Assembly (NCBI GenBank): GCA_029265715.1
Contig: JAJUGZ010000017.1
Location: forward strand, 1-56,158
Direction of reading: 5' to 3'
Length of the DNA: 56,158 nt
Source of the DNA: Bacteroidota bacterium
GTDB lineage: Bacteria; Bacteroidota; Bacteroidia; Bacteroidales; Prolixibacteraceae
Part shown: in pieces, positions 31,963-49,184 of the stretch
How the letters are laid out: each line of letters opens with the position of its first letter
Position numbering within the stretch: position 1 is the first letter of the stretch
The notes under the pieces: generated by a model
Told to the model about the DNA's origin: nothing
Seen by the model: the letters and a program-made list of their open reading frames with translations, nothing else
Database searches by the model: none
Made by a program: the position numbers and the translations under genes

Positions 31963-31994
31963 ACGAGGCTGCCTGAATCATCAGGCAGCCTCGT
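31963..31994. terminator. Bidirectional terminator between convergent genes
   Basis: ACGAGGCTGCCTGA and TCAGGCAGCCTCGT form a perfect 14-bp stem with the loop ATCA. It separates the UspA gene from the convergent operon that ends at 32017. Confidence 0.85.
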
Positions 31995-32016: not shown

Positions 32017-34578
32017 CTATTTCGAAACGGTGATTTTCTTCACTCTACTTTTCACCCGCCCGTCCGGAGTAATTGCCTCTACTTTTATCAGAAAGTCGGA
32101 TTGAACCTGGCTCGCCGGAAAATAAAGCTCTGCCTGCCCTGTATCGGTTACCTGTATGTCGGGGTTCCAATACAACGTTGTCCGACGGTCGTTATCCCCG
32201 GTTTTTTCAGGGACAACAAACTTGCGAGGAAGACGGTATTCCCCGTTGTACGAAACAGCCGTTTCTTCTTCTTTACTCTCCCGCTCCTTGATCTCAGGCC
32301 CACGTTTAGTGAAAATTTCAACCAGCCCTACCGAGTTTAATCCGGTGTACCGTTGGATATCAATTGGGCTGGTCGATACGTTAATATGATCAACCTCGGT
32401 TGGGGAAATATTGCTTATCGCCGAAATATCAGTCCCAACCTGCTGCCCGTCGACCACCAAAAGGGCACCTCCCTGATAATTGAGCGAATTCTGCGACCCG
32501 TAAAACACAATCTGGTTACTCATAATCTGGTAGGGTTTTATCACTTTAATGATATCCAGAATGTTTGTCGAGTTATTCAGCAATTTTTTATACGAGTCTT
32601 TTGTATTGTTTTGGACAACCTGTTTCACCGGCTTCCCAAACAACGCCGGGTTCAACGAATAATAATCATCGAGCGCCCAGTTTTGATCGGACAACTGAGA
32701 GGCCTTGCCCACCACCCAATCTCTCAATTTCTGGTCAAACGACTTATCAAAGACGATTTTTAATGCCTGCTTTCCATCAGGCGCTTCTGCCTGCGCCGAA
32801 TAATCAGCAATATTTCCGGGATTGACTTCCGGGAAACAAAAAATCCCTTCGAAATCGGTCGTTTGTGTTGCCAGTTTCAGGCTTTTCTTATTCACCAGAC
32901 TGACCTTTGCCCCAGGAACCGGATTTCCGTCACGATCCAAAACCGTGCCCCAGACACCAATCTCATTCGATTTTGCCCGGGTTTGAACCTGCGGATTGAA
33001 AAGTTGAACCTTCGCCCAATCCAGTCCGATCGGTTTATTGGCCAGTAACAAATAATCAAACACGGGGTTCTTCAAATCGTCAAACGCCCCGCAACCCAAT
33101 GGGTCAAACACCGGGCGCCCGAGCGCGGCGTTGACTTTTAGCTGCTCAAAAATTTCGGGGGCCCGATTTCCCTGAAAAAAACCGTCGCTAACCGATACAG
33201 CCAAAATACCGGGAACCGGTTTGTCTCCGGACGAAAGCTTTATCTTCAGGTTGATGTTTTCGCCAGGCTTGTATTGTTCTTTGCCTGGGTCGACCGTAAG
33301 CTTCAAATCGTCCGATTTCTGGAGGTAAATGATCCGGTTTGCCAGAGGAAATCCTTCGTTGCTGAATACCGAAAGCAGGCAAAGTCCATCGGGCAAATCG
33401 GCAACCGGAATTTTCACCCGGCTTTGGGCATCAACGGTTATATCGGCTGCCCAATAAATGTTGCTGCCACACAGTGCCATAATGGCCACGTCGTGTTTCT
33501 TTTTGTCTCCAAATATTAAATTAGCTGATACATAAGCGCTGTCGGTTTTCACAATCGAAAATGCCAACCCATTAGGATTTGCATCTGGCAATTCAACCGA
33601 TTGCCCCTTACCCATATCGCTGGTCAGCACCAGCTTATATTTTTCTCCGGCTTCGGCAACGAACGGAAAAAGTCCGCATCCATTAACAATTGTTTTTGTG
33701 ATTGCTATTTGGTTCCCTTCGCGGTCGATAATTTTCCCGTCCACCTCAACCGGAATTCCCAATAAATTAGAAGCCGTAAAACCAATTTTCACCGGAACCC
33801 CGGCGACCAACGAACCTCCCTCCGGATAAAACCTGACCTGGATCAGATCCAGGTTCGTCTGCAACACCAGCTGCTTCGACCAGGTCTGTTTCGAATCGGA
33901 TATTTTTACAACAAACGGGTAGCCATTCGATTGAGCGGGAACCGGGTACCGAATCATAGCCTTCCCTAATTCGTTGGTCTTCAGTTTTCCTTCGGCTAAA
34001 ACATCTGCGCCAGTCGAGATTTGATATTTTAGCGTGTAATTCTTTTCTGCTTTCCCCGCAAGATCTTTGATTTTTACTGCAATATCCGTGTTTTCGCCCG
34101 ATTTAAGAACCGGCCTGAAGTTTTCAGTCTCAACGACAACGGAATTATCAAACAAGGGATCAATCTTCAAAGGCTTGACAAATACTTCGTCGATATTGAA
34201 TTGTTGGGGCGAGTAAGCCACCAAAAAATAATTACCGCCTGATGCGGTTGCCGGAACATCCAGATCGCTATATAAAACACCATTTTCAACCTGATATTTG
34301 TCGCCGGAAACCAACGTTCCGTCAGCCGAATACAACCGTACAACCAAATCGGTCTTCCCGGGGGAAAAAGCCAGGTTGCTGTTGAGTACCGCAGCCCGAA
34401 ACCAGATGATGTTTCCGGGCTTGTAGGTATCCTTATCGGTGAAAAGATAAATTTTTTCGCAGGGGTAAGATTTGTAATAGTCGTTAAGCTGAGCCTGAAG
34501 CTTTGAAACAGGACTTTTTTGCTGAGCAAATATTCCGGAGAAGAAGAATAAAAGAGCGATTAGCAAGGTACATTTCAT
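32017..34578 (-). CDS. Large exported MG2-like protein with C-terminal plug-like domain
   Basis: 853 residues from the ATG at 34578, selected because it gives the signal peptide (MKCTLLIALLFFFSGIFAQ) and follows the upstream stop by 10 bases. The start YPCEKIYLFTDKDTYKPGNIIWFRA is an alpha-2-macroglobulin MG2-like module; further beta-sandwich repeats follow (about 130-520). A CarboxypepD_reg-like module sits near 575-645 (GVWGTVLDRDGNPVPGAKVSL). Residues about 720-785 (GALLVVDGQQVGTDISAISN, GLVEIFTKRG) resemble a TonB receptor plug without a barrel. Last gene of the sigma/FecR/STN operon. Function unknown; a surface or periplasmic scaffold is likely. Confidence 0.8.
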   Translation of the reverse strand: MKCTLLIALLFFFSGIFAQQKSPVSKLQAQLNDYYKSYPCEKIYLFTDKDTYKPGNIIWFRAAVLNSNLAFSPGKTDLVVRLYSADGTLVSGDKYQVENGVLYSDLDVPATASGGNYFLVAYSPQQFNIDEVFVKPLKIDPLFDNSVVVETENFRPVLKSGENTDIAVKIKDLAGKAEKNYTLKYQISTGADVLAEGKLKTNELGKAMIRYPVPAQSNGYPFVVKISDSKQTWSKQLVLQTNLDLIQVRFYPEGGSLVAGVPVKIGFTASNLLGIPVEVDGKIIDREGNQIAITKTIVNGCGLFPFVAEAGEKYKLVLTSDMGKGQSVELPDANPNGLAFSIVKTDSAYVSANLIFGDKKKHDVAIMALCGSNIYWAADITVDAQSRVKIPVADLPDGLCLLSVFSNEGFPLANRIIYLQKSDDLKLTVDPGKEQYKPGENINLKIKLSSGDKPVPGILAVSVSDGFFQGNRAPEIFEQLKVNAALGRPVFDPLGCGAFDDLKNPVFDYLLLANKPIGLDWAKVQLFNPQVQTRAKSNEIGVWGTVLDRDGNPVPGAKVSLVNKKSLKLATQTTDFEGIFCFPEVNPGNIADYSAQAEAPDGKQALKIVFDKSFDQKLRDWVVGKASQLSDQNWALDDYYSLNPALFGKPVKQVVQNNTKDSYKKLLNNSTNILDIIKVIKPYQIMSNQIVFYGSQNSLNYQGGALLVVDGQQVGTDISAISNISPTEVDHINVSTSPIDIQRYTGLNSVGLVEIFTKRGPEIKERESKEEETAVSYNGEYRLPRKFVVPEKTGDNDRRTTLYWNPDIQVTDTGQAELYFPASQVQSDFLIKVEAITPDGRVKSRVKKITVSK

Positions 34579-34588
34579 AGCAGTAAGG

Positions 34589-36184
34589 TTAATTGGCAGA
34601 GAATTTAATGTTATCGGGGTCATTGTGCGAATCAGGAGCATCAGGAACGCCCCTTGACTCGCTTTTGTTATAAAACTTTTTAAGAGCTTTACGCAGGTCT
34701 TCAGAAGGCTGAATAATGTTGTAATCGCCCCAGAAATCCTTGTCATAGCCAACAATAATGTCGGTAAAGATATCTTTGGGGCTAAAAAGTTCGTTCTTTT
34801 TGTAGCGCACTCCATCGTCTTTTCTCAGGTCAGTTACCAAAAGATCTGAGGTACTGTGAAAGATGGAGTTTATGTTGTCGTTTTTACTTCTCACCCTAAA
34901 TTTAACCGATGTTTTTGCCGTATTAAAATACCACTTCCCGTCGAAATTCCGGTAAGTCACCTCATAATTTACATCGAGAGGCCTGACATTAAAGTTCTTC
35001 GGTTTTTTTTTTATCAATGATTTTCTGGCAAATTTCAGTCCGACGCGCCCCAGCCCAAATTCAGCATGCACCAGTGCATACGAATCCATATCAACAAAAA
35101 GCTTCCCTTCGTAACAGGGATAATTAACTTTTTCTTTAGGCTTAAAACGGATCACATACGTATCGCGGTCGTTATAATCAATAACCTGCTCGACACTATA
35201 CCGGTAATAACTCCGAAATTCCGGGTCTAAAAATGTATCCATGGTTTTTATCACATCGAGCTTGGTTATGTAATACGGCCCTCCCTGAATTTTGAAATCG
35301 ACCCACTGGAACGGTCTCACATCCGGGCTTTTACGCCCTTTTATGAATTTTACCCGGTCTTCCTTGTTGGGATCCTCGTAGGACGCTTTCAGTATCTCCA
35401 TAACTGCCTCCGAAACATTTATATAATCTTTATCCTGCTTAAGCACTTCCCGATAAAACGAAGTCATAATAACCGGGGCGCCCGTATAGTTTTGAGACAC
35501 TTTGCCCAACATTTTTTCAATTACCAATTCGGGGTCAACAGCTGTAACTTTTACTTCACTAAGTTTGATCGGGACCGGTTGCATATAAACCCGCAGATTA
35601 TCCTGGATCAAGGTTTCAGCCCGGAATTTTTGCTGTTTATAGCCTAAACAGGAAAAAACAACGGTATCAACACGCAGTGAGTCGGCAATCTTTATTTCAA
35701 AATCTCCATCAACATTCGAGATTGTACCGATAGCCTTTCCAAACAAGGAAACACTGGCCCATGAAACCGGGTCGTTGGTGTCTTTTTCAACAACCTTTCC
35801 GGCTATCGTGAGATATACCGGCTTATTCTCCGGCTTTTCTTCTTTTTCGGCGGAAAAATTTACCGATTGCTGGCGGGTTATGATGATCTGGTCCTGGAGA
35901 ACCTGAAATAAAAAGCGGCGATCAAAAATACGGTCTAATACATCTTTAAGCGGGGTTTCTTTAACCGAAAGATCGATCTTTTTATCGGCATTAACAGTTA
36001 CAGGGTCGTAGGAAAAAAAATAATGAATCTGCTCTGTAATTTGTTCAAGAACAGCGGCAATAGTTTCTGATTTAACATCTAATGTGACCTTCTTGTTAAA
36101 AGCCAGGTTATCTTCCTGTTGCCCAAATGATAATAAGCTTGACAACAGGAAGATAACCGGGATTAACCCTCGCCAAAAATTCAT
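34589..36184 (-). CDS. STN plus CarboxypepD_reg-like exported protein
   Basis: 531 residues, signal peptide to about residue 21 (LLSSLLSFGQ). Residues about 35-105 form a secretin/TonB N-terminus (STN) domain, with AAVLEQITEQIHYFFSYDP and VKETPLKDVLDRIFDRRFLF. A CarboxypepD_reg-like domain follows (about 127-205, IAGKVVEKDTNDPVSWASVSL). The remaining ~320 residues are beta-rich with Tyr/Lys/Arg and hold no TonB barrel of receptor length. The STN domain is the part of FecA-type receptors that touches FecR, so this protein probably interacts with the FecR encoded in the same operon. It starts exactly where the upstream gene ends. Confidence 0.82.
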   Translation of the reverse strand: MNFWRGLIPVIFLLSSLLSFGQQEDNLAFNKKVTLDVKSETIAAVLEQITEQIHYFFSYDPVTVNADKKIDLSVKETPLKDVLDRIFDRRFLFQVLQDQIIITRQQSVNFSAEKEEKPENKPVYLTIAGKVVEKDTNDPVSWASVSLFGKAIGTISNVDGDFEIKIADSLRVDTVVFSCLGYKQQKFRAETLIQDNLRVYMQPVPIKLSEVKVTAVDPELVIEKMLGKVSQNYTGAPVIMTSFYREVLKQDKDYINVSEAVMEILKASYEDPNKEDRVKFIKGRKSPDVRPFQWVDFKIQGGPYYITKLDVIKTMDTFLDPEFRSYYRYSVEQVIDYNDRDTYVIRFKPKEKVNYPCYEGKLFVDMDSYALVHAEFGLGRVGLKFARKSLIKKKPKNFNVRPLDVNYEVTYRNFDGKWYFNTAKTSVKFRVRSKNDNINSIFHSTSDLLVTDLRKDDGVRYKKNELFSPKDIFTDIIVGYDKDFWGDYNIIQPSEDLRKALKKFYNKSESRGVPDAPDSHNDPDNIKFSAN

Positions 36185-37777
36185 TTAAAATATCTTTTTC
36201 AGGTAAAATTCAGTTTTTATTTCCTGACCGTTTCGCAACACCGTCATTTTAATCCGTTTGTCCTCTTTACTTTGAAACAGCAGATTAATATCGTTCAAAT
36301 TTAATGATTTATGGCTTGTGTTGTTCACGGCAATGATCTGATCATTTTCCTGAAGTCCGGCATAATAGGCCGGAGAATTTTCGCGAACTTCTGAAATTAA
36401 GAAAATGGGAAGCCCGGGCATCGGGTTCGTAACTTCCATTCCGCTCATATTGTAGTTAAACGGATCTGAAAGATCGGCTCCCGGACGAAGGGTCAATCGT
36501 TTATTGGGATAGTCTATGGTAACATAAAACCGGCGAAGAATCTCAGCCCCAAGCGTTCCATTCCGGTCGTTGCTGTTGATTAACTGATCAACCAGCTCGT
36601 TTTCGGGGAAAGCCACAATCGGCTCATACAACACAAGCGGGCCAACCCAGATGGCGCCAATCCGGCCCTTCTTGCCATACAGGTCTCCGTTCAACCCACG
36701 CCCAAGAAAGGTTTCGATGTTGCTTTCGGGCAGACTTATTCTCGAATCAGAATTGGTCGAAAGCCACAAAGCATCACTGGCGCCGGTGTCAAGCAAAAGT
36801 TTAACCGGGACTTCTTCGTTCTTGTCAGTCATAATACTTGTGCGTACATACGGTTTATCGCCTTCGAAAATCAACGGAAGGATAATATCTTTTTCCCGAT
36901 CTTTATAATCATAATACTCCGGTTTAATCAAGGTAAGTTTTTGCGCCGGGTAATCGATTTTAACGATATAGTCTTTAAACAAATTAAACCCGATTAATCC
37001 ATGCACAGGAATTCCGAGGATATGAGAAATCTGAAAATTCTCGTTAATCACCATGTGAATTTCCTGATCGTAGGCAACCAGTCCCTGAATGTTGATGTTG
37101 TTATTTCCCGATCTGTAGGCCGTTAGCTGCTCCCCTTCTCCAAGCCCTTTAATATTAATGGGCTGTAAAAAATTCAGGTTTAACTTGTTAACAAACGGCA
37201 ATTCGGTAATGATTGGATACCGTACCCCGGTATCCAAGATAAAATTCAGGGTGTCTGAATTATTGATTACAACCGGAATAATGATCAAATTGCTGGCCGA
37301 TTTAAAGTTGATCGTAATTGACTTCTTTTTGGGGTTTTCAAACACAAATCCCGATTGCGGCGTGTAATTCCGCATTTTTTTGTCGTAGTCAACACTTTTG
37401 TTCATCGGGACATAATCCCGAACAACTAATATATTATCCTGAATTTCGAACAGCAGATAGAAGTCTTTCATTAACTGATCGAGAACGTACTTGATGGGTT
37501 TATTCGAGATATTCAGATTAATGTTCTTCCCATCAATTAGTTTCGAGTTGTAGGAATAATCCAGCTTCAAATAATCACAAATCCGTTCGATAACGTTTGA
37601 AAGCGATTCGTTCTCAGCATAAATACTGATGTTCTGATCCAGGATATTTTCTGTTTGATCCTGCTTTAGTTCACCTTTCTGTGTAGGTTTTTGTGCAAAG
37701 GAAGGAAAACCAAAGAATGACAATAAAATATACATTATGAAAACCGATATGGCGGTTTTTGTTTTCTTTGATTTCAT
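36185..37777 (-). CDS. STN domain, two-lobe aspartic protease and PDZ domain
   Basis: 530 residues with a signal peptide (IMYILLSFFGFPSFAQ). STN domain at about 48-120 (SNVIERICDYLKLDYSYN, NKPIKYVLDQLMKDFYLLF). Two retropepsin-type active-site motifs follow: D182-T-G (FILDTGVRYP) and D330-T-G (LLLDTGASDA), 148 residues apart, each opening an aspartic protease lobe. This arrangement could form a complete active site in one chain. A PDZ domain (about 445-525, SPAYYAGLQENDQIIAVNN) ends the protein. It lies 19 bases downstream of FecR. Retropepsin-PDZ proteins are known in Bacteroidota; the STN fusion and the sigma/FecR context suggest a signalling protease, which is inference. Confidence 0.85.
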   Translation of the reverse strand: MKSKKTKTAISVFIMYILLSFFGFPSFAQKPTQKGELKQDQTENILDQNISIYAENESLSNVIERICDYLKLDYSYNSKLIDGKNINLNISNKPIKYVLDQLMKDFYLLFEIQDNILVVRDYVPMNKSVDYDKKMRNYTPQSGFVFENPKKKSITINFKSASNLIIIPVVINNSDTLNFILDTGVRYPIITELPFVNKLNLNFLQPINIKGLGEGEQLTAYRSGNNNINIQGLVAYDQEIHMVINENFQISHILGIPVHGLIGFNLFKDYIVKIDYPAQKLTLIKPEYYDYKDREKDIILPLIFEGDKPYVRTSIMTDKNEEVPVKLLLDTGASDALWLSTNSDSRISLPESNIETFLGRGLNGDLYGKKGRIGAIWVGPLVLYEPIVAFPENELVDQLINSNDRNGTLGAEILRRFYVTIDYPNKRLTLRPGADLSDPFNYNMSGMEVTNPMPGLPIFLISEVRENSPAYYAGLQENDQIIAVNNTSHKSLNLNDINLLFQSKEDKRIKMTVLRNGQEIKTEFYLKKIF

Positions 37778-37796
37778 GACTTCAGCCTAAGAGAGA

Positions 37797-38822
37797 TTAA
37801 GAATGTGCTTTTAGAATATACTGCCCGTTTGCCTGAACTAACTCAAGATTGAACGTGGTCTGGATAACCTTCAGAATGAAATCAACCGAGTAGTTGTTAA
37901 ACTGGGCCGACAAGAGTAGGTTGTTTAGTTTATCGTCGGATACCACAATATCCACTTTGTAAACTTTTTCAAGGTTGGCAATTACTTCTTTTAACGAAGT
38001 CTCCCTGAAAATCAGGTTGTGCGTCTTCCAGGCTAAAAAGTTGGGATCGTTGTTCGTCGTTTTGAGAAGATCATTACTGGCGCAGATCAATGTTCCTTTA
38101 TCGCCCGGATCAAGGATCAGTTCATTGGTTTTTGCGATCGTAGCAACTTTGTTCGAAACCTGCACTTTACCGGTTTCAACAATCACTTCCACTTTTTCAG
38201 CTTCCGGATATGCATTGACATTAAAGCTGGTACCTAAAACTTTAATCTGCGCATTTCCTGCGTGAATAATGAAAGGTTTATGTTTGTTTGGTTTAACTTC
38301 AAAAAACGCTTCTCCCTGAATTGAAACTTCGCGTTTATCCCGCGAAAACCGTTCCGGATAATTAATCCGTGTATTGGTGTTCAGGCTTACGACAGTTCCG
38401 TCAGGAAGCTCGATGGTTTTAATGGCATTCGCGCCGGCGATCACTTCGTTTATTTGACGCGAAAGAGCATTGTCGCGGATGTACTGATATACAACTGTAC
38501 CCAGCACAATAGCCAGCACAACCATCGCTGCAACTTTCAAAAATGGCTTTAAGGCAAACTTTTCAGAATTAAAAATCCGGAATGTTTTGGATGGAGTTTT
38601 TATCATCTGCCGTTTCACATTTTCCCAGCCCTTCTGCTCCGAATGCTTTTTCAACTCGAAGTAAAGGTCCACCTGCGAAACCAGTTCTTTCAACTTCCCC
38701 ATTTCCTGCATGTCCATTAAATCTTCATCTCCGACAAGCTCATTGTCGAAGATCGAACGGGCTGCAAGCTCCCACTTCCGGGTTTCTATATCTTTTTCTG
38801 CTTTCATTCGCCTATAAGACAT
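37797..38822 (-). CDS. FecR-type anti-sigma factor
   Basis: 341 residues (336 if the ATG at 38807 is used). The cytoplasmic N-terminal part (about 1-95) should hold the sigma factor. One membrane helix follows (about 98-115, FLKVAAMVVLAIVLGTVVY). The periplasmic FecR domain has the signature IKTIELPDGTVVSLNTNTRINYP, and the C-terminal DUF4974 (SLKEVIANLEKVYKVDIVV) has an STN-like fold. In FecIR systems the receptor STN domain signals to this region. It is 33 bases downstream of the sigma gene. Here the downstream partners carry STN but are not SusC receptors. Confidence 0.95.
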   Translation of the reverse strand: MSYRRMKAEKDIETRKWELAARSIFDNELVGDEDLMDMQEMGKLKELVSQVDLYFELKKHSEQKGWENVKRQMIKTPSKTFRIFNSEKFALKPFLKVAAMVVLAIVLGTVVYQYIRDNALSRQINEVIAGANAIKTIELPDGTVVSLNTNTRINYPERFSRDKREVSIQGEAFFEVKPNKHKPFIIHAGNAQIKVLGTSFNVNAYPEAEKVEVIVETGKVQVSNKVATIAKTNELILDPGDKGTLICASNDLLKTTNNDPNFLAWKTHNLIFRETSLKEVIANLEKVYKVDIVVSDDKLNNLLLSAQFNNYSVDFILKVIQTTFNLELVQANGQYILKAHS

Positions 38823-38855
38823 TGGAGTAAACCCTTACCCCTAAATGCATCATTT

Positions 38856-39434
38856 TTATTTTTTTATAATCATTAATAACGAGAACAGATGTGTACTGTA
38901 CTCCTTCAATTCATCTCGCAAAAACTTTAATGCCAAACCCATTTGGGCCTCAACCGTTTTTACCGAAATATTCAGGGTCTCGGCAATCTCTTTGTACTTT
39001 AACCCTTGCTCCCGGCTTAGGCGAAATATCTCCTGCCGCTTGGCTGGCAATGCATCGATACAATCTTCGATTTTCTTCCGAAGCCCAACTTCCATAAAAT
39101 ATTTCTCCGGATTAATGTCTTCCTGAGAATTCTCCATCACATTCTGGGCATACTGCTGCCTGATTTTCTGGTGTTGAATGTGATTCAGACACTGGTTCCG
39201 AACTGACCGAAAAAAATAATGTTTCACCGAACTTTCGATATGAAGCTGGTCGCGCTTCTCCCAAATCTTCACAAACATTTCTTGTACGGTTTCTTCAGCC
39301 AGTTCAACATCATTCAGAAACTGACGGGCAAAAAAGCACAACGACGAATAATACCTCCGGAAAAGCACTTCAAAGGCCATTTCATCTCCACTTCTAAGTT
39401 TCTGATAAAGAATTTTATCGTCTAATTGCTCCAT
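38856..39434 (-). CDS. ECF RNA polymerase sigma factor, FecI-like
   Basis: 192 residues from the ATG at 39434; an upstream start at 39461 adds nine residues. Sigma region 2 is visible at about 14-80 (LRSGDEMAFEVLFRRYYSSL, AEETVQEMFVKIWEKRD) and region 4 at about 120-175 (LPAKRQEIFRLSREQGLKYKE, ISVKTVEAQMG). It belongs to the Bacteroidota ECF group that pairs with FecR. First gene of the five-gene operon and divergent from the DUF3332 gene; no clear housekeeping promoter was found in the 179-base gap. Confidence 0.95.
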   Translation of the reverse strand: MEQLDDKILYQKLRSGDEMAFEVLFRRYYSSLCFFARQFLNDVELAEETVQEMFVKIWEKRDQLHIESSVKHYFFRSVRNQCLNHIQHQKIRQQYAQNVMENSQEDINPEKYFMEVGLRKKIEDCIDALPAKRQEIFRLSREQGLKYKEIAETLNISVKTVEAQMGLALKFLRDELKEYSTHLFSLLMIIKK

Positions 39435-40948: not shown

Positions 40949-41758
40949 TTACAACGTTTGTTCCTGCTGCTTCTTCATCACCTTCCCCGAGACCAAAAAA
41001 ACAACCGGTTTCCCTGAAACAGGATTGGTTTGGGTCACAACCACCGTGTTCCATACATCTTCGATATTCCGAAAAGTCAGGACCTCTTCCGGAGTACCGC
41101 TGGTATGCAGTTTACCTTCATTTACCAGGAACAGATGATCGCAATATTCTGCGGCCAGGTTCAGGTCGTGAATCACCATCAAAATCGTCAGTCCGGTTTG
41201 CTCGTTCAGTTCCTGCAACAAGTTCAGTATATGCACCTGATGGGTAATGTCGAGATGAGAAGTAGGCTCGTCCAACAACAGCAGTTGCGGCTGCTGAGCC
41301 AGCGCCCGGGCAATTCCGGCAAGTTGCTGCTCGCCGCCGCTGAGTTCCGACATCAGCTTATCGCGAAAGCGCCATGAACCGGTTTTTTTCATCATCTCGC
41401 AGGCAATGCGGTAGTCTTCTTCTGTTTCGAAAAAAGTAAACCTCGCGTGATGTGGAATTCGCCCCATCAGCACATAATCCTCCACGGTCATGTCGCCCGC
41501 CTCGATAAACTGACTGACGATAGCAATCTGTCGCGCTTTTTGCCGCAGTGACATTTCCCGGAGGCTTTGCCCATTTAATCTGATCTGCCCCTCGCTCAGG
41601 GGCAAGGTGCCGGCAATTCCCCTGAAAAGCGTGGTCTTTCCGGATCCGTTGGGCCCGACAATTCCGGCGAAACTGCCTTTGCCTACGCCAAATGAAATAT
41701 GATCGAGCCGGAACTGACTGTATCCACAGCAAACGTTATGTAATTCGAGCAGGTTCAT
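40949..41758 (-). CDS. btuD: Cobalamin (BtuD-like) ABC transporter ATP-binding protein
   Basis: 269 residues. Walker A GPNGSGKTT at 35-43, signature LSGGEQQ at 139-145 and Walker B LLLLDEPTSHLD at about 159-170. The FecE/BtuD/HmuV group is indicated by size and by the C-terminal tail after the H-loop (MVIHDLNLAAEYCDHL). It powers the adjacent BtuC-like permease. Substrate is inferred as cobalamin from the riboswitch, the adenosyltransferase and the binding proteins upstream in the same strand run. A 150-base gap separates it from the permease gene, with no feature seen there. Confidence 0.88.
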   Translation of the reverse strand: MNLLELHNVCCGYSQFRLDHISFGVGKGSFAGIVGPNGSGKTTLFRGIAGTLPLSEGQIRLNGQSLREMSLRQKARQIAIVSQFIEAGDMTVEDYVLMGRIPHHARFTFFETEEDYRIACEMMKKTGSWRFRDKLMSELSGGEQQLAGIARALAQQPQLLLLDEPTSHLDITHQVHILNLLQELNEQTGLTILMVIHDLNLAAEYCDHLFLVNEGKLHTSGTPEEVLTFRNIEDVWNTVVVTQTNPVSGKPVVFLVSGKVMKKQQEQTL

Positions 41759-41908
41759 ACGTTAATTTTAAAAGACGATCTGTAAAATATAAAATGAGCT
41801 GTTTATCTGACTCTCCACCGACGTTCGCTGGCTCAGGTCTTGGAGTGAATGTGATTCCAATAAAAGTTCAATTTGATGAATACCGATCATTTTTTACAGA
41901 AATGATGG

Positions 41909-42922
41909 TTAATTTTTACCTTTTAACAACGACCGGCGGCTCATGAGCAGGAAAACCACGCCGCCCACCATCCCGGTGATCACCCCAATGGGAAGCTCGT
42001 TGGGCGCAATGATGGTTCGGGCAATCACATCGCAAGCCAACAAAAACGAAGCGCCCAGCAGAAACGAACTGAGCAGCAGGATGCGGTAATCCGATCCGAC
42101 CAACCGGCGCACCAAATGTGGGATGATCAGTCCGACAAAGCCGATTACCCCGGCAACAGCCACGCAAATACCGGCCAAAAGCGAGGCCAGCAGAAACAGG
42201 ATCCGGATACTCAGGTTGGTATTGATGCCCAGGTGCGAGGCCTTTTCTTCGCCCAGACGCAACGCATTCAACGGCTCAACAAACAGGTAAGCCACCACCA
42301 GCGAAATCAATGCTGTAACCAGTGTAATAACAATCAGACTGGTGTCTGGCTCATCGAGCGAGCCCATGATCCAGAAAATAATACCGTGCAGGTTTTCGGT
42401 TTCGGTGGTCGACATCAAAAACATCATCGCCGACGAAGCAATGAAACTAACCATCACCCCCGTAAGCAACATACTCTGAATATTGACTTTACCATGCCGG
42501 GAACTGATTGTATAAACAAGAAAGATCACCAAGAAAGCACCCGCAAATCCGGATAGCGGAAGCATGAACGACCCGATCAGGCGATGAAGCCCGGTAACCA
42601 CCACCAATGCCACGCCCAGCGAAGCGCCCCCCGAAATGCCCAGCGTGTACGGCTCGACCAGCGGATTTCGATACACGCCCTGCAAAATAACACCGGAAAG
42701 ACTGAGCCCCCCCCCCACGGCAGCTCCCAGCAGCATGCGCGGAATACGGATTTGCTTCAGGATCATGTACTCCATGCTGTCGGGCTTCCCCTGCAGAGTA
42801 GGAATTATGTCGGTTATCCCGATGTTAAGTTCGCCACTGGTGAGCGACCAAAGGGCTGTCAGGAGCAACAATACCAGAAATGCCCCGGAAAAAATAAGCC
42901 AAACGGTGTACTTTCGTTGCAT
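41909..42922 (-). CDS. btuC: Cobalamin (BtuC-like) FecCD-family permease
   Basis: 337 residues from the ATG at 42922, which overlaps the adenosyltransferase stop by a few bases; a TTG at 42937 was rejected. About ten hydrophobic segments. Family blocks IRIPRMLLGAAVGGGLSLSGVILQGVYRNPLVEPYTLGISGGASLG and GVIGFVGLIIPHLVRRLVG are present in pieces typical of FecCD permeases, including the GLIIPH coupling-helix region. It carries corrinoid through the inner membrane with the ATPase encoded next. Confidence 0.92.
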   Translation of the reverse strand: MQRKYTVWLIFSGAFLVLLLLTALWSLTSGELNIGITDIIPTLQGKPDSMEYMILKQIRIPRMLLGAAVGGGLSLSGVILQGVYRNPLVEPYTLGISGGASLGVALVVVTGLHRLIGSFMLPLSGFAGAFLVIFLVYTISSRHGKVNIQSMLLTGVMVSFIASSAMMFLMSTTETENLHGIIFWIMGSLDEPDTSLIVITLVTALISLVVAYLFVEPLNALRLGEEKASHLGINTNLSIRILFLLASLLAGICVAVAGVIGFVGLIIPHLVRRLVGSDYRILLLSSFLLGASFLLACDVIARTIIAPNELPIGVITGMVGGVVFLLMSRRSLLKGKN

Positions 42923-42926
42923 GTTT

Positions 42927-43457
42927 TTAAAATTCAATTCCTTCGCGACTGGGTATATCCTGATCGTACGGATGTTTCACCTTGGTAACATGACTCACGT
43001 AATCGGCGCGGACAATCAGTTTGTCGGTAGCTCCGCGCCCCGTCATCACCAACTCGGTATGTTCCGGCTTATGGCTTATAAAGTCAAGAAGCTCTTCTTC
43101 TGCCAGATAGCCATCTCGGACCGATATCAGAATTTCGTCCATGATGAGCAGATCAGGCTCATTTTCAGTCAGGTAGCCGGAGAGAAATTGCAATCCCTCT
43201 CGAACTTCGCGCTGAAGTTGTTCCCGCGTCAGGGTTTTGTTGCAAAACGGGTGACCACCGGTAAACCCGAAAATGGTTGCTCCCAGTTTCTCGAGGCTCT
43301 GTATTTCGTTGTATCCATATAACTCCGGGCGTTTGTGAAAATGCGCGTAACAAACCCTGAACCCGTGCCCTAAGGCTCGGATTGCCAGGCCAACAGCAGC
43401 TGTTGTTTTACCTTTTCCGTCGCCAGTGTAAATATGAATCAATCCTTTGTTTTTCAT
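42927..43457 (-). CDS. cobO: Corrinoid adenosyltransferase (CobO/BtuR type)
   Basis: 176 residues. The N-terminal P-loop is GDGKGKTT at 12-19, followed by AAVGLAIRALGHGFRV. The family core LLIMDEILISVRDGYL and the C-terminal RGATDKLIVRADYVSHV are present. It transfers the adenosyl group from ATP to cob(I)alamin, making coenzyme B12 from imported corrinoid. It overlaps the permease gene, so salvage and import are coupled. Upstream lie 287 bases with no gene. Confidence 0.94.
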   Translation of the reverse strand: MKNKGLIHIYTGDGKGKTTAAVGLAIRALGHGFRVCYAHFHKRPELYGYNEIQSLEKLGATIFGFTGGHPFCNKTLTREQLQREVREGLQFLSGYLTENEPDLLIMDEILISVRDGYLAEEELLDFISHKPEHTELVMTGRGATDKLIVRADYVSHVTKVKHPYDQDIPSREGIEF

Positions 43458-43744
43458 AAGTATAAATTTTCAATGTAGGTTCGTACAATTTTCGTAACAG
43501 CTCTTGCTTTTCAATAAAATTCGCACCGGTATGGAATTGAGCTTGCGAAATCCGCGAAGCGAATAGCCATTTGTACATTTTCGGTTTGTATGAGCAGTGG
43601 TCTTATGGCTATCTCATCTGTTTATAATTTGATTTTTATTTAATTGCCTAACGGAACTCGCCATTATTATCATGCTCCTGTATGTAAGACTATCTCTCAT
43701 GGCTCGTTTCATGTGTTGTTGTCTTTTAAACTACCCCTCCGTCT

Positions 43745-44554
43745 TTATTGATAGGTTAACCGGATAATTTCTTCGAGCGACTCGACAAAATCGAACGGAG
43801 TTGCGCTGCTCGTTTTTTCCGAATCGAGTATGAAAATCTTACGTAACCTGGCCGCATTCAGCATTGGGTATTTTTGCCAGGTTTCTTTTTCTTCGTTTCC
43901 CGCCAAACCCATCGTTACGATGAGAATGACATCCGGGTTCCGGACCAGCACATTTTCACGGGAAATAGCTCCGTTTTTCAGGTCTGAAGCGATGTTTGTT
44001 CCTCCGGAAAATCGGATAAAATCGTCCATAAATGTGTTCGGAATTGCACAAAACAGCGGATTGGCACCGATCTGCAAAAACATTTTGGGATGTTTGCCGG
44101 CCGGGACTTTCTTTCGGACTTCGGCGATCCGTTTTTTTGCATCGTCAACCATGGTTTGAGCTTCGACAGCTGCATCAGTTAACTGCCCCAGTTTGAGCAA
44201 ATAGCCACAAACTTCATCGAACGATTTTGGATACGGAAAATACTCAACCCTGATCCCGGCTTTCCGGAAGGCATCGAGCGTTTCCGGATTGGTGAGCGAT
44301 GAAGCGATAATTAAATCAGGCTTCAGGCTCAGGGTTTTTTCGATATTTACCGAAACAGCGCTGGCTACCACCGAAACCTGATCTTTTGGATCGGGTTTGC
44401 AGAAATTGGTACACCCGACCAGCCGGTTTTGCCTTCCCAACAAATAAATTTCCTTGGTAACCGATGGGACCAGCGAAACGATGCGTTTGGCCATTTGTGC
44501 CTGTGCCTGAAAACTAATCAGTAAGGTTATCAGTAAAATCTTAATTTGTACCAT
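43745..44554 (-). CDS. btuF: BtuF-like periplasmic cobalamin-binding protein
   Basis: 269 residues with a short signal peptide (IKILLITLLISFQAQAQ). The mature part starts with the class III binding-protein pattern RIVSLVPSVTKEIYLLGRQNRLVGCTNFC and continues with LKPDLIIASS and a long central helix. It should deliver corrinoid to the BtuCD transporter in the periplasm. It is 15 bases downstream of a second, signal-less homologue. The pair share PSVTxExxxLxRQxxLVGxTxFC. Confidence 0.88.
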   Translation of the reverse strand: MVQIKILLITLLISFQAQAQMAKRIVSLVPSVTKEIYLLGRQNRLVGCTNFCKPDPKDQVSVVASAVSVNIEKTLSLKPDLIIASSLTNPETLDAFRKAGIRVEYFPYPKSFDEVCGYLLKLGQLTDAAVEAQTMVDDAKKRIAEVRKKVPAGKHPKMFLQIGANPLFCAIPNTFMDDFIRFSGGTNIASDLKNGAISRENVLVRNPDVILIVTMGLAGNEEKETWQKYPMLNAARLRKIFILDSEKTSSATPFDFVESLEEIIRLTYQ

Positions 44555-44569
44555 TGTTTCAATTTGATT

Positions 44570-45442
44570 TTATTGGGATTTTGGGATATTGTTTGTAATC
44601 GCCTTCCAACATTCCATTCCAACTGTTTTTTTAATCATTTCCCCTGCTTCTTCATGCTGTCTCTCTAAACCAGGTTCTAACTCCGGATGAATAATCCGGA
44701 GCAGGTTCGCAAACCCTTCAACAGCCCGGGGGCCGGGACGCGAAAGCAGTTCCCCGTCGAGAAAATACACCTTGTTTTCCCTGACGGCCTTCAGGTTTCT
44801 CAGTATTTCATCCTCCTGAAGCAGCCCGCCCAGCGTTTTCCACTCGTTGCTGTAGCTGGTTTTCGGCACGATGATAATTTCCGGATCGGATTCGGCAATG
44901 CTTTCGGCCATTCGTTCCGGGTCAACGGGAATATGGGTCCCACCAGCCAGTTTGATCAGCAAATTGGTCTGGCACTTTTTTTTCCAACTGCAACACGGCT
45001 CGAACGTGCAGAAATAGCAAACACGTATTTTCGGTACTTTTTCTGCCAGTTCGAACAAGCAGTTAAGCCCCGATTCGACGGTTTGTGCCAATCTCCCGGC
45101 TTCAGGCTCACAGTTTAGAATTTGCCCGGTCTGGCGGATAGTTTTCGGTGAATCGGTTAGTTTTTGGGCAGTAACCCGCTCAACCCGAATCCCCTGTTGC
45201 CTGATCAGGTCAAGCTTGTCGGCATTGTGCAAATCGGTCGCCACCACCACGTCGGGTTTTATCCGAATGATGGCCTCCAGGTCGGGCGTGGCAAAGCCCC
45301 CGATCTTAGGCCATCGCCTGGCTTCGTCGGGGAAATTACAAAAGTCGGTTGTTCCCACCAGCAGATGTTGGCGGTTCAGGGCAAAAGTGGTTTCGGTAAC
45401 CGATGGCGCCAAAGAGATAATCCGGAGTTTTTCTTCCATCAC
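44570..45442 (-). CDS. BtuF-family protein lacking a signal peptide
   Basis: 290 residues. The binding-protein fold starts at once (LRIISLAPSVTETTFALNRQHLLVGTTDFC), and the previous gene ends only 3 bases before the start codon, leaving no room for a signal peptide. It is probably cytoplasmic. A cysteine cluster, CYFCTFEPCCSWKKKC at about 146-161, is absent from the neighbouring homologue and could bind metal or a corrinoid. Next to a PP-loop ATPase and under the same riboswitch, it may act in intracellular cobalamin handling. This role is inference. Confidence 0.8.
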   Translation of the reverse strand: MMEEKLRIISLAPSVTETTFALNRQHLLVGTTDFCNFPDEARRWPKIGGFATPDLEAIIRIKPDVVVATDLHNADKLDLIRQQGIRVERVTAQKLTDSPKTIRQTGQILNCEPEAGRLAQTVESGLNCLFELAEKVPKIRVCYFCTFEPCCSWKKKCQTNLLIKLAGGTHIPVDPERMAESIAESDPEIIIVPKTSYSNEWKTLGGLLQEDEILRNLKAVRENKVYFLDGELLSRPGPRAVEGFANLLRIIHPELEPGLERQHEEAGEMIKKTVGMECWKAITNNIPKSQ

Positions 45443-45445
45443 TGG

Positions 45446-46093
45446 TTAATTAAGTTCAAGAAACCAGTGTTCGTCGTAAAAAGTAACAGCCCCTTTTTGC
45501 AATTCAACAGGCCGGGTAAACAGAGGGCCATCAAACACGAAGGTGTGAAACTCGCCATTTTCGGCACAAACATCAATTCCGGGCATCGAAACAAGCCGGG
45601 CTACCAGTTCCTGATCGTACAATTTCCCGATAAATTCTTCCGGAAGATACCGTGAATGCACCGAGACCAGCAACGTTTTAAAGCCTGAAGCTATAAATTC
45701 AGAAGCCAATTCGGTCGTTGAATTGTCCCAAAGCGGGAAAATGGGCTCGATGCCTGCTTCCTGACAGACACGTTCGATCCAGACTCGATGTTCGCGCAGG
45801 TAAATATCGCCAAAGACACCACCTTCAAATCCTTCGGATTTCAGTTCGCGCATAACCGATTTGAAATCTTGTTCATATTCCCGACGAGTGGTTTCTTTTT
45901 GCAGAAGCCGGATGTTCATAGCTGTTGCCTGACGTGCAAGCAGTTCTTTTTTCTGCCCGTGCGAACGCGAATATGCGGTATAGCGGTCGCACATATTTAC
46001 CAGACAGGCAACATCGTGTTCGCCGTCCAGTCGGGTCCGATAAAGAGCCAGCATGCAGTCTTTGCCCCCACTCCATGATGAAAAAACCTTCAT
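45446..46093 (-). CDS. Dph6-family PP-loop ATP-binding protein
   Basis: 215 residues. The PP-loop SGGKD lies at 8-12 (SSWSGGKDCMLALYR), as in diphthine-ammonia ligase/MJ0570-type ATPases, with the family block GGVFGDIYLREHRVWIERVCQE near 115-136 and EFHTFVFDGPLF near the C-terminus. Bacteria lack diphthamide, so the eukaryotic reaction is not expected. As first gene behind the cobalamin riboswitch, it may amidate or otherwise ligate a group to a corrinoid or its side chains. That is a hypothesis from context. Confidence 0.82.
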   Translation of the reverse strand: MKVFSSWSGGKDCMLALYRTRLDGEHDVACLVNMCDRYTAYSRSHGQKKELLARQATAMNIRLLQKETTRREYEQDFKSVMRELKSEGFEGGVFGDIYLREHRVWIERVCQEAGIEPIFPLWDNSTTELASEFIASGFKTLLVSVHSRYLPEEFIGKLYDQELVARLVSMPGIDVCAENGEFHTFVFDGPLFTRPVELQKGAVTFYDEHWFLELN

Positions 46094-46189
46094 TTCGCTA
46101 TGTTTTTAGCCCCAGAGAAAATGAATTGGAAAACAACCTGGCTTCCATCGATCTTTTTCCCCGAAGATTCGAATTAAACAAACTTTGTT

Positions 46190-46345
46190 TGGACAGGTCT
46201 TCTGGCTTACCCGGTTTCAACAGCCTTCCCGTCGGTCATCGACCCAACAGTGGCACAGAAGATTGAAACCTTTTCGCGGGCTTACAGCAGCGGGGACTGC
46301 TCCGGAATTTTTGAATTATTTTCAAATCACCGGATTCCCTTATTA
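46190..46345 (-). ncRNA. Cobalamin riboswitch
   Basis: On the minus strand the conserved elements appear in order: GGAATCCGGTG (about 46329-46339), CCGGAGCAGTCCCCGCTGC (46286-46305), GTAAGCCCGC (46276-46285), GCCACTG (46248-46254), GGGAAGGC (46223-46230) and the B12 box AGCCAGAAGACCTG (46194-46207). It lies in the leader of the PP-loop gene at 46093. Downstream, AAACAAAGTTTGTTT can form a hairpin and may be part of the expression platform. Expected effect: cobalamin binding turns off the import/salvage cluster. Confidence 0.95.
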
Positions 46346-46386
46346 AGGCATTCACACAAACGGCGAAATAGCCATCCAAAACAGCG

Positions 46387-46394
46387 CAAAAGTA
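46387..46394 (-). promoter_or_regulatory. -7 element of the riboswitch transcript
   Basis: TACTTTTG on the minus strand matches TAnnTTTG. No good -33 element is visible at the usual spacing. Transcription would start about 30 bases before the riboswitch. Confidence 0.45.
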
Positions 46395-47506: not shown

Positions 47507-49114
47507 ATGAACAACAGAAAATTTTCGATTTATATTCCTTTGTTGCTGGCCGTTTCGATGGTCGCAGGTATTTTTTTGGGAATCCGGGTAACCAGGACCG
47601 AAACGCTAAACCCGGCCAGATTGTCGTTTGGACGGGGCAACAAGCTGAACAACATTCTCGACCTGATTGCCAACTATTACGTCGATTCGGTCTCAACCGA
47701 CAAACTGGTAGAAGAATCAATTCCCGACATCCTGAAAAGACTCGATCCGCATACAACATATATCCCGGCCAGGGAAATGGTTGAAGTTGAAGAAGAAATG
47801 CGTGGAGATTTTGGCGGTATCGGCGTTCAGTTTTCCATCCAGAACGACACCGTAATGGTCGTCGATGTGGTTTCGGGCGGACCATCGTCCAAATTAGGCA
47901 TCATCCCGGGAGACCGGATTGTTCAGGTAAACGACACATTAATCGCTGGTGTAAAAATCCAGAACAACGATGTACTGAAAAAACTCCGGGGAGAAATTGG
48001 CACCAAAGTAAAAGTGGGAATTAAACGAAAAGGGATCAAAGAGATAATTGATTTTAACATTACCCGTGGCGAAATTCCTATTTACAGTGTCGATGTAAGC
48101 TACATGATCGACCCGCAGACCGGCTACATCAAAGTAAGCCGTTTTGCCGAAAAAACATACGAAGAGTTTATGGAAGCCATGAATAAAATTGATCGGCAAG
48201 GCGCCCGGAAAGTCATTGTAGACCTTCGCGGAAATACAGGCGGCTATTTGACAGCCGTCATCCGCATGGTAAACGAGTTTCTTCCGCAAGGCGCGCTGAT
48301 TGTTTATACCGAAGGACATTCTCAGCCAAAGAAAACTTATAACGCCGATGCCAAAGGTAAATTCCGCGATAAGGAAATTGTGGTCTTGATTGACGACTTC
48401 TCGGCTTCGGCCAGCGAAATTTTCTCGGGCGCCATTCAGGATAACGACCGCGGCTGGCTAGTTGGTCGCCGCTCGTTCGGGAAAGGCCTGGTTCAGGAAC
48501 AAATTCCGTTCAACGACGGAAGCGCCTTACGCCTGACTGTAGCCCGTTACTACACACCGAGCGGCCGTTGCATCCAGAAATCGTATGAGAAAGGGACCGA
48601 CGAATATTATCATGACCTGGCAGAACGCGCAGAACATGGCGAGTTCCAACAGGCCGACAGCATTCAGTTTAACGATTCGTTGAAATACCAAACAATAAAA
48701 GGGCGCACAGTGTATGGCGGCGGCGGCATCATGCCCGACTATTTTGTCCCGGCCGATACATCCGGTTATTCTCCATATTTCCAGAGAATCGTACAGAAAG
48801 GCTTAATTTACCAGTTTGCCCTTGATTATGCCGACCGCAACCGTGAAACATTAAAGCATTATACAAAAGCTTCTGAATTCGAAAAATATCTTCGGGGTAC
48901 AGGGATTCTTCAAAAGTTTGTGGCTTATGCAAGCGCCAAAGGCGTATCGCCCAATGCCTCCGACCTGAACATCTCCGGCATGATTATCGAGACACAAACA
49001 ATGGCTTACATCGCCCGGAATATTATCGGCGAAGAAGGTTTTTATCCGATCATTGCAAACATTGACAATGCCTTGCAAAAAGCCGTTGCAGTTTCGAAGT
49101 TGCCCATGCCATAA
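47507..49114 (+). CDS. S41 C-terminal processing peptidase (CtpA/Prc type)
   Basis: 535 residues. An N-terminal membrane anchor or signal (IYIPLLLAVSMVAGIFLG) is followed by a cap domain, PDZ (about 90-180, VVDVVSGGPSSKLGIIPGDRIVQV) and the S41 core. The probable catalytic dyad is S301 (FSASASEIF) and K326 (SFGKGLVQ), 25 residues apart as in E. coli Prc. A C-terminal helical extension (about 420-535) is usual in Bacteroidota members. It works in the periplasm on C-terminal tails of exported proteins. It may be co-transcribed with the dCMP deaminase. Confidence 0.93.
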   Translation: MNNRKFSIYIPLLLAVSMVAGIFLGIRVTRTETLNPARLSFGRGNKLNNILDLIANYYVDSVSTDKLVEESIPDILKRLDPHTTYIPAREMVEVEEEMRGDFGGIGVQFSIQNDTVMVVDVVSGGPSSKLGIIPGDRIVQVNDTLIAGVKIQNNDVLKKLRGEIGTKVKVGIKRKGIKEIIDFNITRGEIPIYSVDVSYMIDPQTGYIKVSRFAEKTYEEFMEAMNKIDRQGARKVIVDLRGNTGGYLTAVIRMVNEFLPQGALIVYTEGHSQPKKTYNADAKGKFRDKEIVVLIDDFSASASEIFSGAIQDNDRGWLVGRRSFGKGLVQEQIPFNDGSALRLTVARYYTPSGRCIQKSYEKGTDEYYHDLAERAEHGEFQQADSIQFNDSLKYQTIKGRTVYGGGGIMPDYFVPADTSGYSPYFQRIVQKGLIYQFALDYADRNRETLKHYTKASEFEKYLRGTGILQKFVAYASAKGVSPNASDLNISGMIIETQTMAYIARNIIGEEGFYPIIANIDNALQKAVAVSKLPMP

Positions 49115-49128
49115 AAGTTCCCGGGCAC

Positions 49129-49154: not shown

Positions 49155-49184
49155 TTACTAAATGAATTTAGCAAGGCACAGGCA

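Follow-up and report, generated by a model that had tools for sequence, protein, structure and literature searches.

A five-gene operon from a Bacteroidota bacterium encodes an ECF sigma factor (P1), a FecR-type anti-sigma factor (P2), two non-receptor STN proteins (P3, fused to a protease, and P4, fused to a LolA-like domain) and an MG2 protein (P5), with no TonB receptor found within the operon. The operon, the domains, the catalytic residues of the protease, the conserved linkage of these genes and an RseP-family protein encoded in the genome are shown. It is possible, with a likelihood a little short of even, that they form a FecR-type cell-surface signalling system whose TonB receptor has given way to STN-tagged periplasmic proteins, and which would work like sigmaE-RseA-RseB-DegS.

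All five genes lie on the minus strand of the window, that is, the whole stretch of 56,158 nucleotides that was analysed, and the gaps of 33, 19, 0 and 10 bases from P1 to P5 given in the first-pass annotation are borne out by the gene coordinates. P1 (38856..39434, 192 aa) starts with an ATG at 39434, an in-frame TTG being also present at 39461, and matches the Sigma70 r2/r4 profiles and, at 183 bits, the Bacteroidetes family TIGR02985. P2 (37797..38822, 341 aa) has profile matches to FecR (residues 128-221) and FecR_C (270-330), together with a hydrophobic stretch at about residues 94-115, read by eye, and a GT motif, V-[LV]-G-T-S-F, at 195-200, which is kept in 34/34 FecR. Below the operon, in the convergent gap that separates it from a Usp gene on the opposite strand, there is a terminator-like hairpin of 14 pairs (31963..31994), listed on the plus strand and, as a palindrome, also located 3' of the operon on the minus strand. 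An S41/PDZ protease gene is found elsewhere in the window (47507-49114). Ahead of the sigma gene, the sequence TTTTTATACCTTWGC, which we take to resemble the usual Bacteroidetes -7 box, is seemingly conserved in several genera; when it was searched for in the genome with one mismatch allowed, 9 matches were obtained against 6 for the reversed control, and the derivation of a regulon from this motif was dropped.

Domain make-up of P3, P4 and P5

P3 (36185..37777, minus strand, 530 aa) looks secreted, its signal-peptide-like start being followed by an STN/FecR_C-type domain (about residues 46-124), a protease (about 145-440) and a PDZ domain (460-525). The two-lobe aspartic protease with PDZ that had been read from the sequence is recovered by direct Asp_protease_2 and PDZ profile matches in the window protein and by two D-T/S-G motifs in one chain, with a pepsin/tethered-retropepsin fold. 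The catalytic residues are D182, kept in 34/34 members of set A1 and 53/54 of set A3, and D330 (34/34 and 54/54, respectively); the g17 genus departs from the motif in lobe 2, with DLG in place of DTG (4/4). Judged by these motifs and the modelled fold, P3 is a two-lobed aspartic protease of clan AA, for which proteolysis itself is predicted.

The STN domain claimed for P3 is missed by Pfam in the window copy, which has no STN or FecR_C match at E<=0.1, whereas within the family FecR_C is matched in 25/34 proteins and STN in 16/34 (Pfam, E<=0.01). The claim is supported by an HMM built from 29 receptor STN domains of the same genome as the window, which matches 35/35 in-family P3, 0/26 out-of-family P3 and 0/175 shuffles, and by hhalign, which aligns the P3 STN with the receptor STN at 96.7%. 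The AlphaFold model, whose pLDDT is <50 for the greater part of the segment, shows no confident STN but neither confirms nor refutes one; a receptor-plug HMM finds no match in P3. Relatives of P3 that lack the STN are widespread in many other families, and in the five whose N-terminus was inspected the signal peptide leads straight into the protease.

P4 (34589..36184, minus strand, 531 aa) begins with a signal-peptide-like segment, followed by STN (about residues 32-104), CarboxypepD_reg (125-213) and an antiparallel beta domain (about 215-500); a low-confidence linker (residues 107-120) lies behind the STN in the AlphaFold model. This agrees with the earlier description of the protein as STN plus CarboxypepD_reg plus a beta-rich region: STN and CarbopepD_reg_2 are direct Pfam matches in the window protein, the receptor-STN HMM matches 34/34 P4, and Foldseek finds the beta region LolA/RseB-like. 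Its best match is the LolA-like structure 3bk5 (E 4.5e-7), with P. gingivalis LolA3 at E 6.5e-5; RseB (2p4b) is matched at E 6.2e-5. 'LolA-like' is a safer label than 'RseB-like', because the RseB match is only the fifth in the list, behind those to 3bk5, a SusC N-terminal extension, DUF1329 and lipovitellin, and has a TM-score of 0.30 on the target and an rmsd of 13.6 A. No second (C-terminal) RseB domain is seen in P4, the weak Pfam matches to LolA_like (3/32) and MucB_RseB (1/32, at E 0.054) are equalled in score by chance families, and the LolA-like domain, when compared by itself with PDB sequences, gave chance matches only. The receptor-plug HMM has its best stretches on P4 in the CarboxypepD part. 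STN-less CarboxypepD-LolA-like paralogues of P4 also exist.

P5 (32017..34578, minus strand, 853 aa) is an optional member of the operon, not found in 12/34 in-family loci, with profile matches to MG2 and to CarboxypepD_reg (542-600). The plug-like domain proposed for it (about residues 690-765) holds in part: the receptor-plug HMM matches 17/23 P5 and hhalign aligns the segment with the receptor plug at 96.3%, but 0/25 members match Pfam Plug at E<=0.01 and the window member reaches only E 0.045 with the HMM.

The first-pass annotation had correctly placed non-receptor STN proteins beside FecR; the STN is borne out for P4 by Pfam and the HMM and for P3 by the family HMM and hhalign, and neither protein is a TonB receptor, given frames of only 530 and 531 aa and models with other folds. 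Its further suggestion, that a TonB transducer is split over three proteins, is not supported, in view of the STN-less relatives of P3 and P4 and of the optional P5. Since those relatives exist and P5 is missing in the 12 loci, the STN appears, from sequence comparison, to have been joined onto unrelated periplasmic proteins, with no breakup of a receptor.

Conservation across genomes

A receptor-sized STN frame comes after 31 of the 35 FecR matches in the window's genome; complete STN frames that are not receptors come after only one, the FecR of this operon. The order sigma-FecR-P3-P4, adjacent and on the same strand, was found by script in 33/34 fetched in-family loci and in 70/80 named loci (71/80 on adding L247 by tblastn), the two sets being overlapping; the remaining named loci comprise six broken by contig ends and three that hold P3 without sigma/FecR. 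P3 and P4 adjoin in all the 33 and 70 four-gene loci of these sets. Two cultured environmental species, Draconibacterium orientale and Sunxiuqinia elliptica, are represented among the loci. The loci being related, such counts reflect few independent events. The linkage of the STN-bearing P3 to FecR is conserved in related genomes, within one Bacteroidota family; the 26 out-of-family proteases include none with an STN and none with an adjoining sigma/FecR.

Sigma-FecR-P4 without P3 occurs in g2, g9, f60 and f105. The first two lie within the family tree, and neither is among the 107 genomes with P3. In the tree of P1+P2+P4, g17, which has P3, groups with g2+g9 at 100% ultrafast bootstrap; this calls for P3 to have been lost from g2/g9 or gained a second time, and a simple late insertion of P3 is unsupported. 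Of the genomes to which the three loci with P3 and without sigma/FecR belong, two (G059 and G095) lack any P4 match at E<=1e-40, and their FecR matches are distant only. The STN of P3 shows no relaxation in the three loci (mean z 0.53, 0.71 and -0.58), which counts against the site-1 reading of P3 set out below. P3 as an invariable part of the switch is rejected by g2/g9, by the other families without P3 and by these three loci. Because sister lineages hold sigma-FecR-P4 without P3, P4 is read as the central transducer and P3 as an addition that can be lost.

A possible mechanism and its rivals

In the proposed mechanism, the cytoplasmic part of FecR would hold P1, and the STN of P4 would dock on FecR's own C-terminal STN-type domain. 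The docked P4 would shield FecR, as RseB/MucB shields RseA/MucA, while its LolA/RseB-like domain would sense a lipid, a lipoprotein or another envelope ligand. P3 would dock by its STN on FecR or P4. Release of P4 and/or the capture of an exposed C-terminus by the PDZ domain of P3 would allow the pepsin-like active site to make the site-1 cut in FecR. RseP would then release the sigma factor, and an RseP-family site-2 protease is encoded in the window's genome. Docking, shielding, cleavage, ligand, regulon and the STN-FecR contact are what we infer. In favour of this mechanism are the conserved gene order, the STN found in in-family P3 only, the two conserved Asp residues and the fold of the protease, the LolA-like domain of P4, the GT motif of FecR, the RseP-family protein and the presence of P4-STN behind sigma-FecR even without P3. 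Against it, P3 is absent from g2/g9, where another protease must cut FecR, and persists in the three loci without sigma/FecR. Also on that side are the Prc-type S41 protease implicated elsewhere, together with the S41/PDZ gene of this window, the DLG of the g17 genus, the AlphaFold model without a confident STN in P3, the low rank of the RseB match, the seemingly secreted nature of P3, the motif that yielded no regulon and the relatedness of the loci.

The same P3-less loci (g2, g9, f60, f105) are compatible with P4 acting alone as sensor-transducer, P3 being an operon-made quality-control protease held at FecR/P4 by its STN and a general protease (e.g., Prc-type S41) opening the switch. The persistence of P3 without sigma/FecR, the widespread STN-less relatives and the implication of Prc in other systems agree with this; however, it explains neither the STN on P3, seen only in this family among the sampled genomes, nor the position of P3 directly between FecR and P4 in 71/80 loci, and we regard it as rather doubtful. 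Less likely still, P3 would cut P4, or the linker behind its STN, and not FecR, tuning the amount of free STN that shields FecR. The low-confidence P4 linker at 107-120 and the adjacency of P3 and P4 in every four-gene locus would suit such a cut, which would resemble the one suggested for CtpA in the signalling domain of FoxA. The available sections of PMC11637429 propose that a protease detaches the signalling domain of the transducer, which afterwards protects the anti-sigma factor. P4 is nevertheless retained without P3 in g2, g9 and other families.

The STN-type domains might also make no contact with FecR, docking P3 and P4 on each other or on another periplasmic partner, with the linkage to sigma/FecR reflecting co-expression only. 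The available text of PMC7186176 reports that isolated PupR STN subdomains failed to bind the PupB signalling domain, and the P3 STN is as conserved as expected in the three loci without sigma + FecR. Against this stand the presence of the STN in the FecR-linked family and its absence from 26 unlinked relatives, its known role as signalling domain of FecR partners, and the occurrence of STN-P4 behind sigma-FecR in other families too, so that we find the idea distinctly improbable.

If the proposed mechanism holds, this FecR system seemingly senses through a LolA-like periplasmic protein instead of a nutrient receptor, and therefore the envelope state is indicated as the signal. How Bacteroidota sense envelope stress is, to our knowledge, little understood. 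Three papers, in their accessible sections, call the enzyme that makes the site-1 cut in FecR-type anti-sigma factors unknown or unidentified, although Prc is implicated (PMC8144685, PMC11637429, PMC7186176), and P3 is a concrete and testable candidate for it, because it is an operon-encoded protease bearing the docking domain of known FecR partners. More tentatively still, a widespread periplasmic pepsin-like PDZ protease may have gained an STN and become a dedicated, docked FecR site-1 protease paired with an STN-tagged LolA/RseB-like sensor of lipid or lipoprotein; this would be a convergent sigmaE-type envelope-stress module made from cell-surface-signalling parts, with the STN as a general docking system of the Bacteroidota periplasm.

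Comparison with known systems

No matching system turned up in the literature listings examined. With FecI-FecR-FecA, Fox and Pup, the operon shares an ECF sigma factor, a membrane FecR with C-terminal STN-type domain and GT motif, partners with an N-terminal STN and a genome encoding the RseP family; it differs in having no TonB receptor and in the protease and LolA-like partners co-operonic with sigma and FecR. STN-STN contact between transducer and FecR-type regulator, and protection from proteolysis, are described in the available parts of PMC11637429, PMC7186176 and PMC8144685, the first two of which already implicate a Prc-type S41 protease in cutting FecR-type regulators. PUMA3 of Pseudomonas aeruginosa (VreA-VreI-VreR) likewise has a barrel-less periplasmic STN protein with a sigma and an anti-sigma factor (PMC2729926, PMC4971064), which, as portrayed there, sets a precedent for a non-receptor STN partner, so that a receptor partner is not universal. 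VreA, however, is a single STN protein (two here), has a size of about 23 kDa and is predicted to end in a TolA/TonB-like domain, and no protease, CarboxypepD or LolA-like domain is named for it in the accessible sections of these papers.

P3 has partial counterparts among aspartic proteases. PerP of Caulobacter crescentus is a retropepsin-type aspartic protease whose target is a polarity protein rather than an anti-sigma factor, and we know of no STN in it. A review lists it alongside PodJ and MmpA, a site-2 protease, in its table of such cascades (PMC10202637, table as available). RloA is also a secreted bacterial retropepsin-like aspartic protease with a DTG motif, but is described as a homodimer, whereas a single chain of P3 carries both lobes, together with PDZ and STN, and is tied to a sigma factor; the word 'PDZ' is absent from the text of the RloA paper (PMC12239564). 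PDZ-aspartyl proteases are listed as a functionally uncharacterised family in the accessible part of PMC6411480.

The closest parallel in logic is sigmaE-RseA-RseB-DegS, or AlgU-MucA-MucB-AlgW, with a sigma factor, a membrane anti-sigma factor, a LolA-fold shield and a PDZ protease; MucB/RseB shields MucA/RseA, lipid releases it, and AlgW/DegS are PDZ proteases (PMC7400510, in the sections available). DegS is membrane-anchored according to the excerpted text of PMC8144685, whereas P3 is seemingly secreted. In the operon described here, the anti-sigma factor is FecR and not RseA, the protease is pepsin-like aspartic and not an HtrA serine protease, and docking would proceed through STN domains, with a P4 in which no RseB C-terminal domain is seen.

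Domain composition of the operon

The five genes form an operon on the minus strand, with gaps of 33, 19, 0 and 10 bases, as the first-pass annotation had stated. P1 (39434-38856, -) is an ECF sigma factor, its TIGR02985 match scoring 183 bits (cut-off 126), and P2 (38822-37797, -) carries the Pfam domains FecR and FecR_C, the V-[LV]-G-T-S-F motif of FecR being present in 34/34 sequences. Pfam recognises Asp_protease_2 and PDZ in P3 (37777-36185, -), STN and CarbopepD_reg_2 in P4 (36184-34589, -), one part of which matches DUF5686 below the cut-off, and MG2 and CarboxypepD_reg in P5 (34578-32017, -). By eye, P3, P4 and P5 alike begin with a signal-peptide-like stretch.

In the source genome (4.2 Mb, 200 contigs), P2 has 35 matches at E<=1e-10, and this arrangement was seen at one of them. 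In 31 of them an STN follows at 301-777 bases, in a frame of at least 1,090 aa, and in one it lies in a frame cut by the contig end; two show no STN match within 2.5 kb, where a divergent STN could escape detection. Behind the remaining match, that of the window, lie two STN proteins, 530 and 531 aa long, the STN of P3 being a family-level call.

Pfam calls no STN in the window's P3 at E<=0.1. Among 34 P3 family members, the window's included, Pfam STN is matched by 16 (best 5.5e-6) and FecR_C by 25 (best 1.3e-7), both at E<=0.01. These two domains belong together structurally: in PupR, a FecR-type regulator, the C-terminal subdomain has been identified as an STN (PMC7186176). When 29 STN domains of receptors encoded in the source genome were made into an HMM, it matched, at a threshold of 0.01, 35/35 P3 (window E 2.1e-5 at Z=1000) and 34/34 P4, and none of 26 P3 homologues from outside Prolixibacteraceae, 34 FecR, 23 P5 or 175 shuffled P3 controls. 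In hhalign, the P3 STN reached 96.7% against receptor STN, 98.7% against the P4 STN and 83.9% against FecR_C, and the P4 STN 98.9% against receptor STN; control values were 0.2% for P3 STN against plug and 3.2% for plug against STN. AlphaFold models P3 with a mean pLDDT of 76.7 and is silent on this domain, most of residues 23-121 having a pLDDT under 50. The STN proposed earlier for P3 is thus borne out at family level by the HMM and the profile alignment.

The protease region of P3 is modelled with pLDDT 65-94 per block of ten residues, and its fold resembles two-lobed pepsins and a tethered HIV-1 protease dimer (3nxe, TM 0.68 on target). The motif aspartates of lobes 1 and 2, D182 and D330, are conserved in 34/34 sequences each in alignment A1, and in 53/54 and 54/54, respectively, in alignment A3; the lobe 2 motif is DLG in all four members from genus g17. 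Taking into account this pepsin-like modelled fold and the conserved aspartates, proteolytic activity is likely. Pfam upholds the aspartic protease and the PDZ, and the model the two lobes.

In the AlphaFold model of P4 (mean pLDDT 85.0), an STN-like unit is accompanied by a CarboxypepD_reg domain and by a large domain of antiparallel beta structure, in line with the composition previously read from the sequence. The top Foldseek match was 3bk5, a LolA-like domain for lipoprotein sorting (E 4.5e-7, TM 0.42 on target), followed by a SusC N-terminal extension, DUF1329, lipovitellin and then RseB; Escherichia coli RseB (2p4b) gave E 6.2e-5, TM 0.30 and rmsd 13.6 A, and P. gingivalis LolA3, the seventh match, E 6.5e-5. 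The C-terminal fragments match Pfam LolA_like weakly in 3/32 cases (best 0.0015), MucB_RseB in 1/32 (0.054) and DUF5686 in 5/32, values that can be due to chance, since an unrelated phage family matches 6/32 (best 0.0039). The beta domain is labelled LolA/RseB-like as a modelled likeness, homology not being claimed. Frames of ~590-680 aa elsewhere (G522:C34, G476:C96, G591:C1, G618:C1:2506833) match the STN and CarboxypepD parts of P4 and not its C-terminal domain; further non-receptor STN proteins with different tails seem to exist.

In P5, MG2 is found in 25/25 members, and Pfam Plug in none of these at E<=0.01. A receptor-plug HMM matches 17/23 P5 and hhalign gives 96.3%; the plug-like segment formerly noticed in this MG2-like protein is genuine at family level. 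P5 was found in 22/34 in-family loci and is outside the operon core.

Elsewhere in the window, an S41/PDZ (Prc/Ctp-type) protease gene (47507-49114, +) lies just 5' of a second ECF sigma gene (49185-49670, +), which overlaps a gene for a 353-aa protein without clear Pfam family; two OMP_b-brl_2 proteins come after it (all within 47507-50728, +). A B12-type uptake locus (40949-46394, -) is headed by a cobalamin riboswitch (46394-46175, -); the cluster has a gene for a periplasmic binding protein, and a permease and an ATPase of the ABC type can be read there by eye.

Distribution of the operon and of its parts

P3 is matched in 107/140 genomes of Prolixibacteraceae, the source genome included. 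Among 34 other in-family loci, fetched to spread over genera with long contigs preferred, sigma, FecR, P3 and P4 are adjacent on one strand in 33 (gaps -38 to 506 bases), the sole locus with P3 alone being L104. A search of named genomes gave 165 loci, the best 80 of which come from Sunxiuqinia, Draconibacterium and Mangrovibacterium, all Prolixibacteraceae, and from Maribellus, Mariniphaga, Gaoshiqia, Tangfeifania, Puteibacter and others, with many MAGs; this set includes L104 (as L261) and overlaps the former in further genomes. Within these best 80 of 165, the four genes are intact in 71 (70 by script, L247 by tblastn), and six are consistent and cut by contig ends (L250, L267, L287, L299, L300, L302), P3 being broken into two frames in L299. 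The linkage of the STN-protease to FecR is therefore conserved across related genomes. Three records titled as Chitinophaga pinensis, Chlorobiota and Odoribacter MAGs (L225, L267, L301) hold P3 68-82% identical to the window's, and their taxon names are probably wrong.

In the remaining three of these 80 loci (L261, L263, L288), P3 stands without sigma and FecR. L261 and L288 lack P4 too, P3 running into an rbfA-like gene; in L263 the contig ends ~300 bases past P3, so P4 cannot be judged. The P3 STN of all three is intact, its conservation no lower than expected and not relaxed. G059 and G095, genomes with P3 and without the operon, have no P4 at E<=1e-40; their best FecR matches reach 1e-28 to 1e-29, against values of 1e-65 to 1e-80 reached by the G099 and G036 orthologues.

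Conversely, P3 was not found in genera g2, g8, g9, g12 and g13, none of which is among the 107 P3-bearing genomes. Thirteen g2 and g9 loci, from genomes with STN-bearing P4, contain no P3 (0/13). All seven from g9 have sigma-FecR-P4-P5 (FecR in two frames in L311); of six from g2, four have sigma-FecR-P4, one FecR-P4 without a picked sigma frame, and one is cut by the contig end. Several further g9 genomes show an STN-less P4 paralogue only; in g8, no P4 match reaches E<=1e-40. Since g17, which has P3, groups with g2 and g9 at 100% in the tree of P1, P2 and P4, P3 was probably lost in g2 and g9. Outside the family, four genomes show a near full-length P4 match, STN included; in three the order is [STN-less P4 paralogue]-sigma-FecR-P4, and the fourth (G168) has neither sigma nor FecR nearby. 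L211, L212 and L213 carry the STN-less CarboxypepD-LolA-like paralogue directly 5' of sigma-FecR-P4, giving two LolA-like proteins per cluster.

The protease itself extends to 43 genomes of the order (198 searched) and 40 of the class (295 searched). These out-of-family matches begin no earlier than query residue 127, save in G195 (from 91 in a stop-containing frame, with the open frame matching from 139) and G295 (a second, weaker match from 113). In 26 of the 43 order-level loci, the best-scoring minus two partial ones, the match begins at residue 136-152, and no sigma, FecR, P4 or P5 match lies beside the protease (0/26), although eight of these loci span at most 12 kb (two less than 8 kb) and a neighbour could be cut off.

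A possible signalling mechanism and known systems

Before the signal, according to PMC11637429, the transducer STN sits on the C-terminal part of its FecR-type regulator, protecting it; Prc degrades that part, the site-1 protease is given as unknown, and it is suggested that STN domains might contact PDZ proteases as well. PMC8144685 describes E. coli FecR as cleaved first by unknown periplasmic protease(s) and then by RseP, and the source genome encodes an RseP-family protein. According to PMC7400510, MucB, like RseB, shields its anti-sigma factor until lipid-triggered release, and the cutting enzymes are the PDZ proteases AlgW/DegS.

Compared with this sigmaE/AlgU logic, the operon offers one part per role: FecR, a LolA/RseB-like STN protein and an STN-bearing PDZ protease. 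P4 would shield FecR and P3 would cut it, a tentative model to which we give somewhat less than an even chance. The main doubts come from the lineages without P3, the loci with P3 only, and general Prc-type proteases.

In five of eight P5-less loci read downstream (L098, L099, L105, L108, L120), rbfA and a LolC/E-like permease lie on the same strand past P4 of the four-gene operon; families were checked for L098 and L105, LolCE scoring below its curated cut-off. These neighbours fit an envelope theme, though they may be due to chance.

Neither an STN-aspartic protease nor a sigma-FecR-P3-P4 operon is described among the full-text literature matches listed, a scope outside which most subscription journals fall. 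A barrel-less STN partner has a precedent in PUMA3/VreA; the kind is therefore already known, and the variant with an STN-aspartic protease is new.
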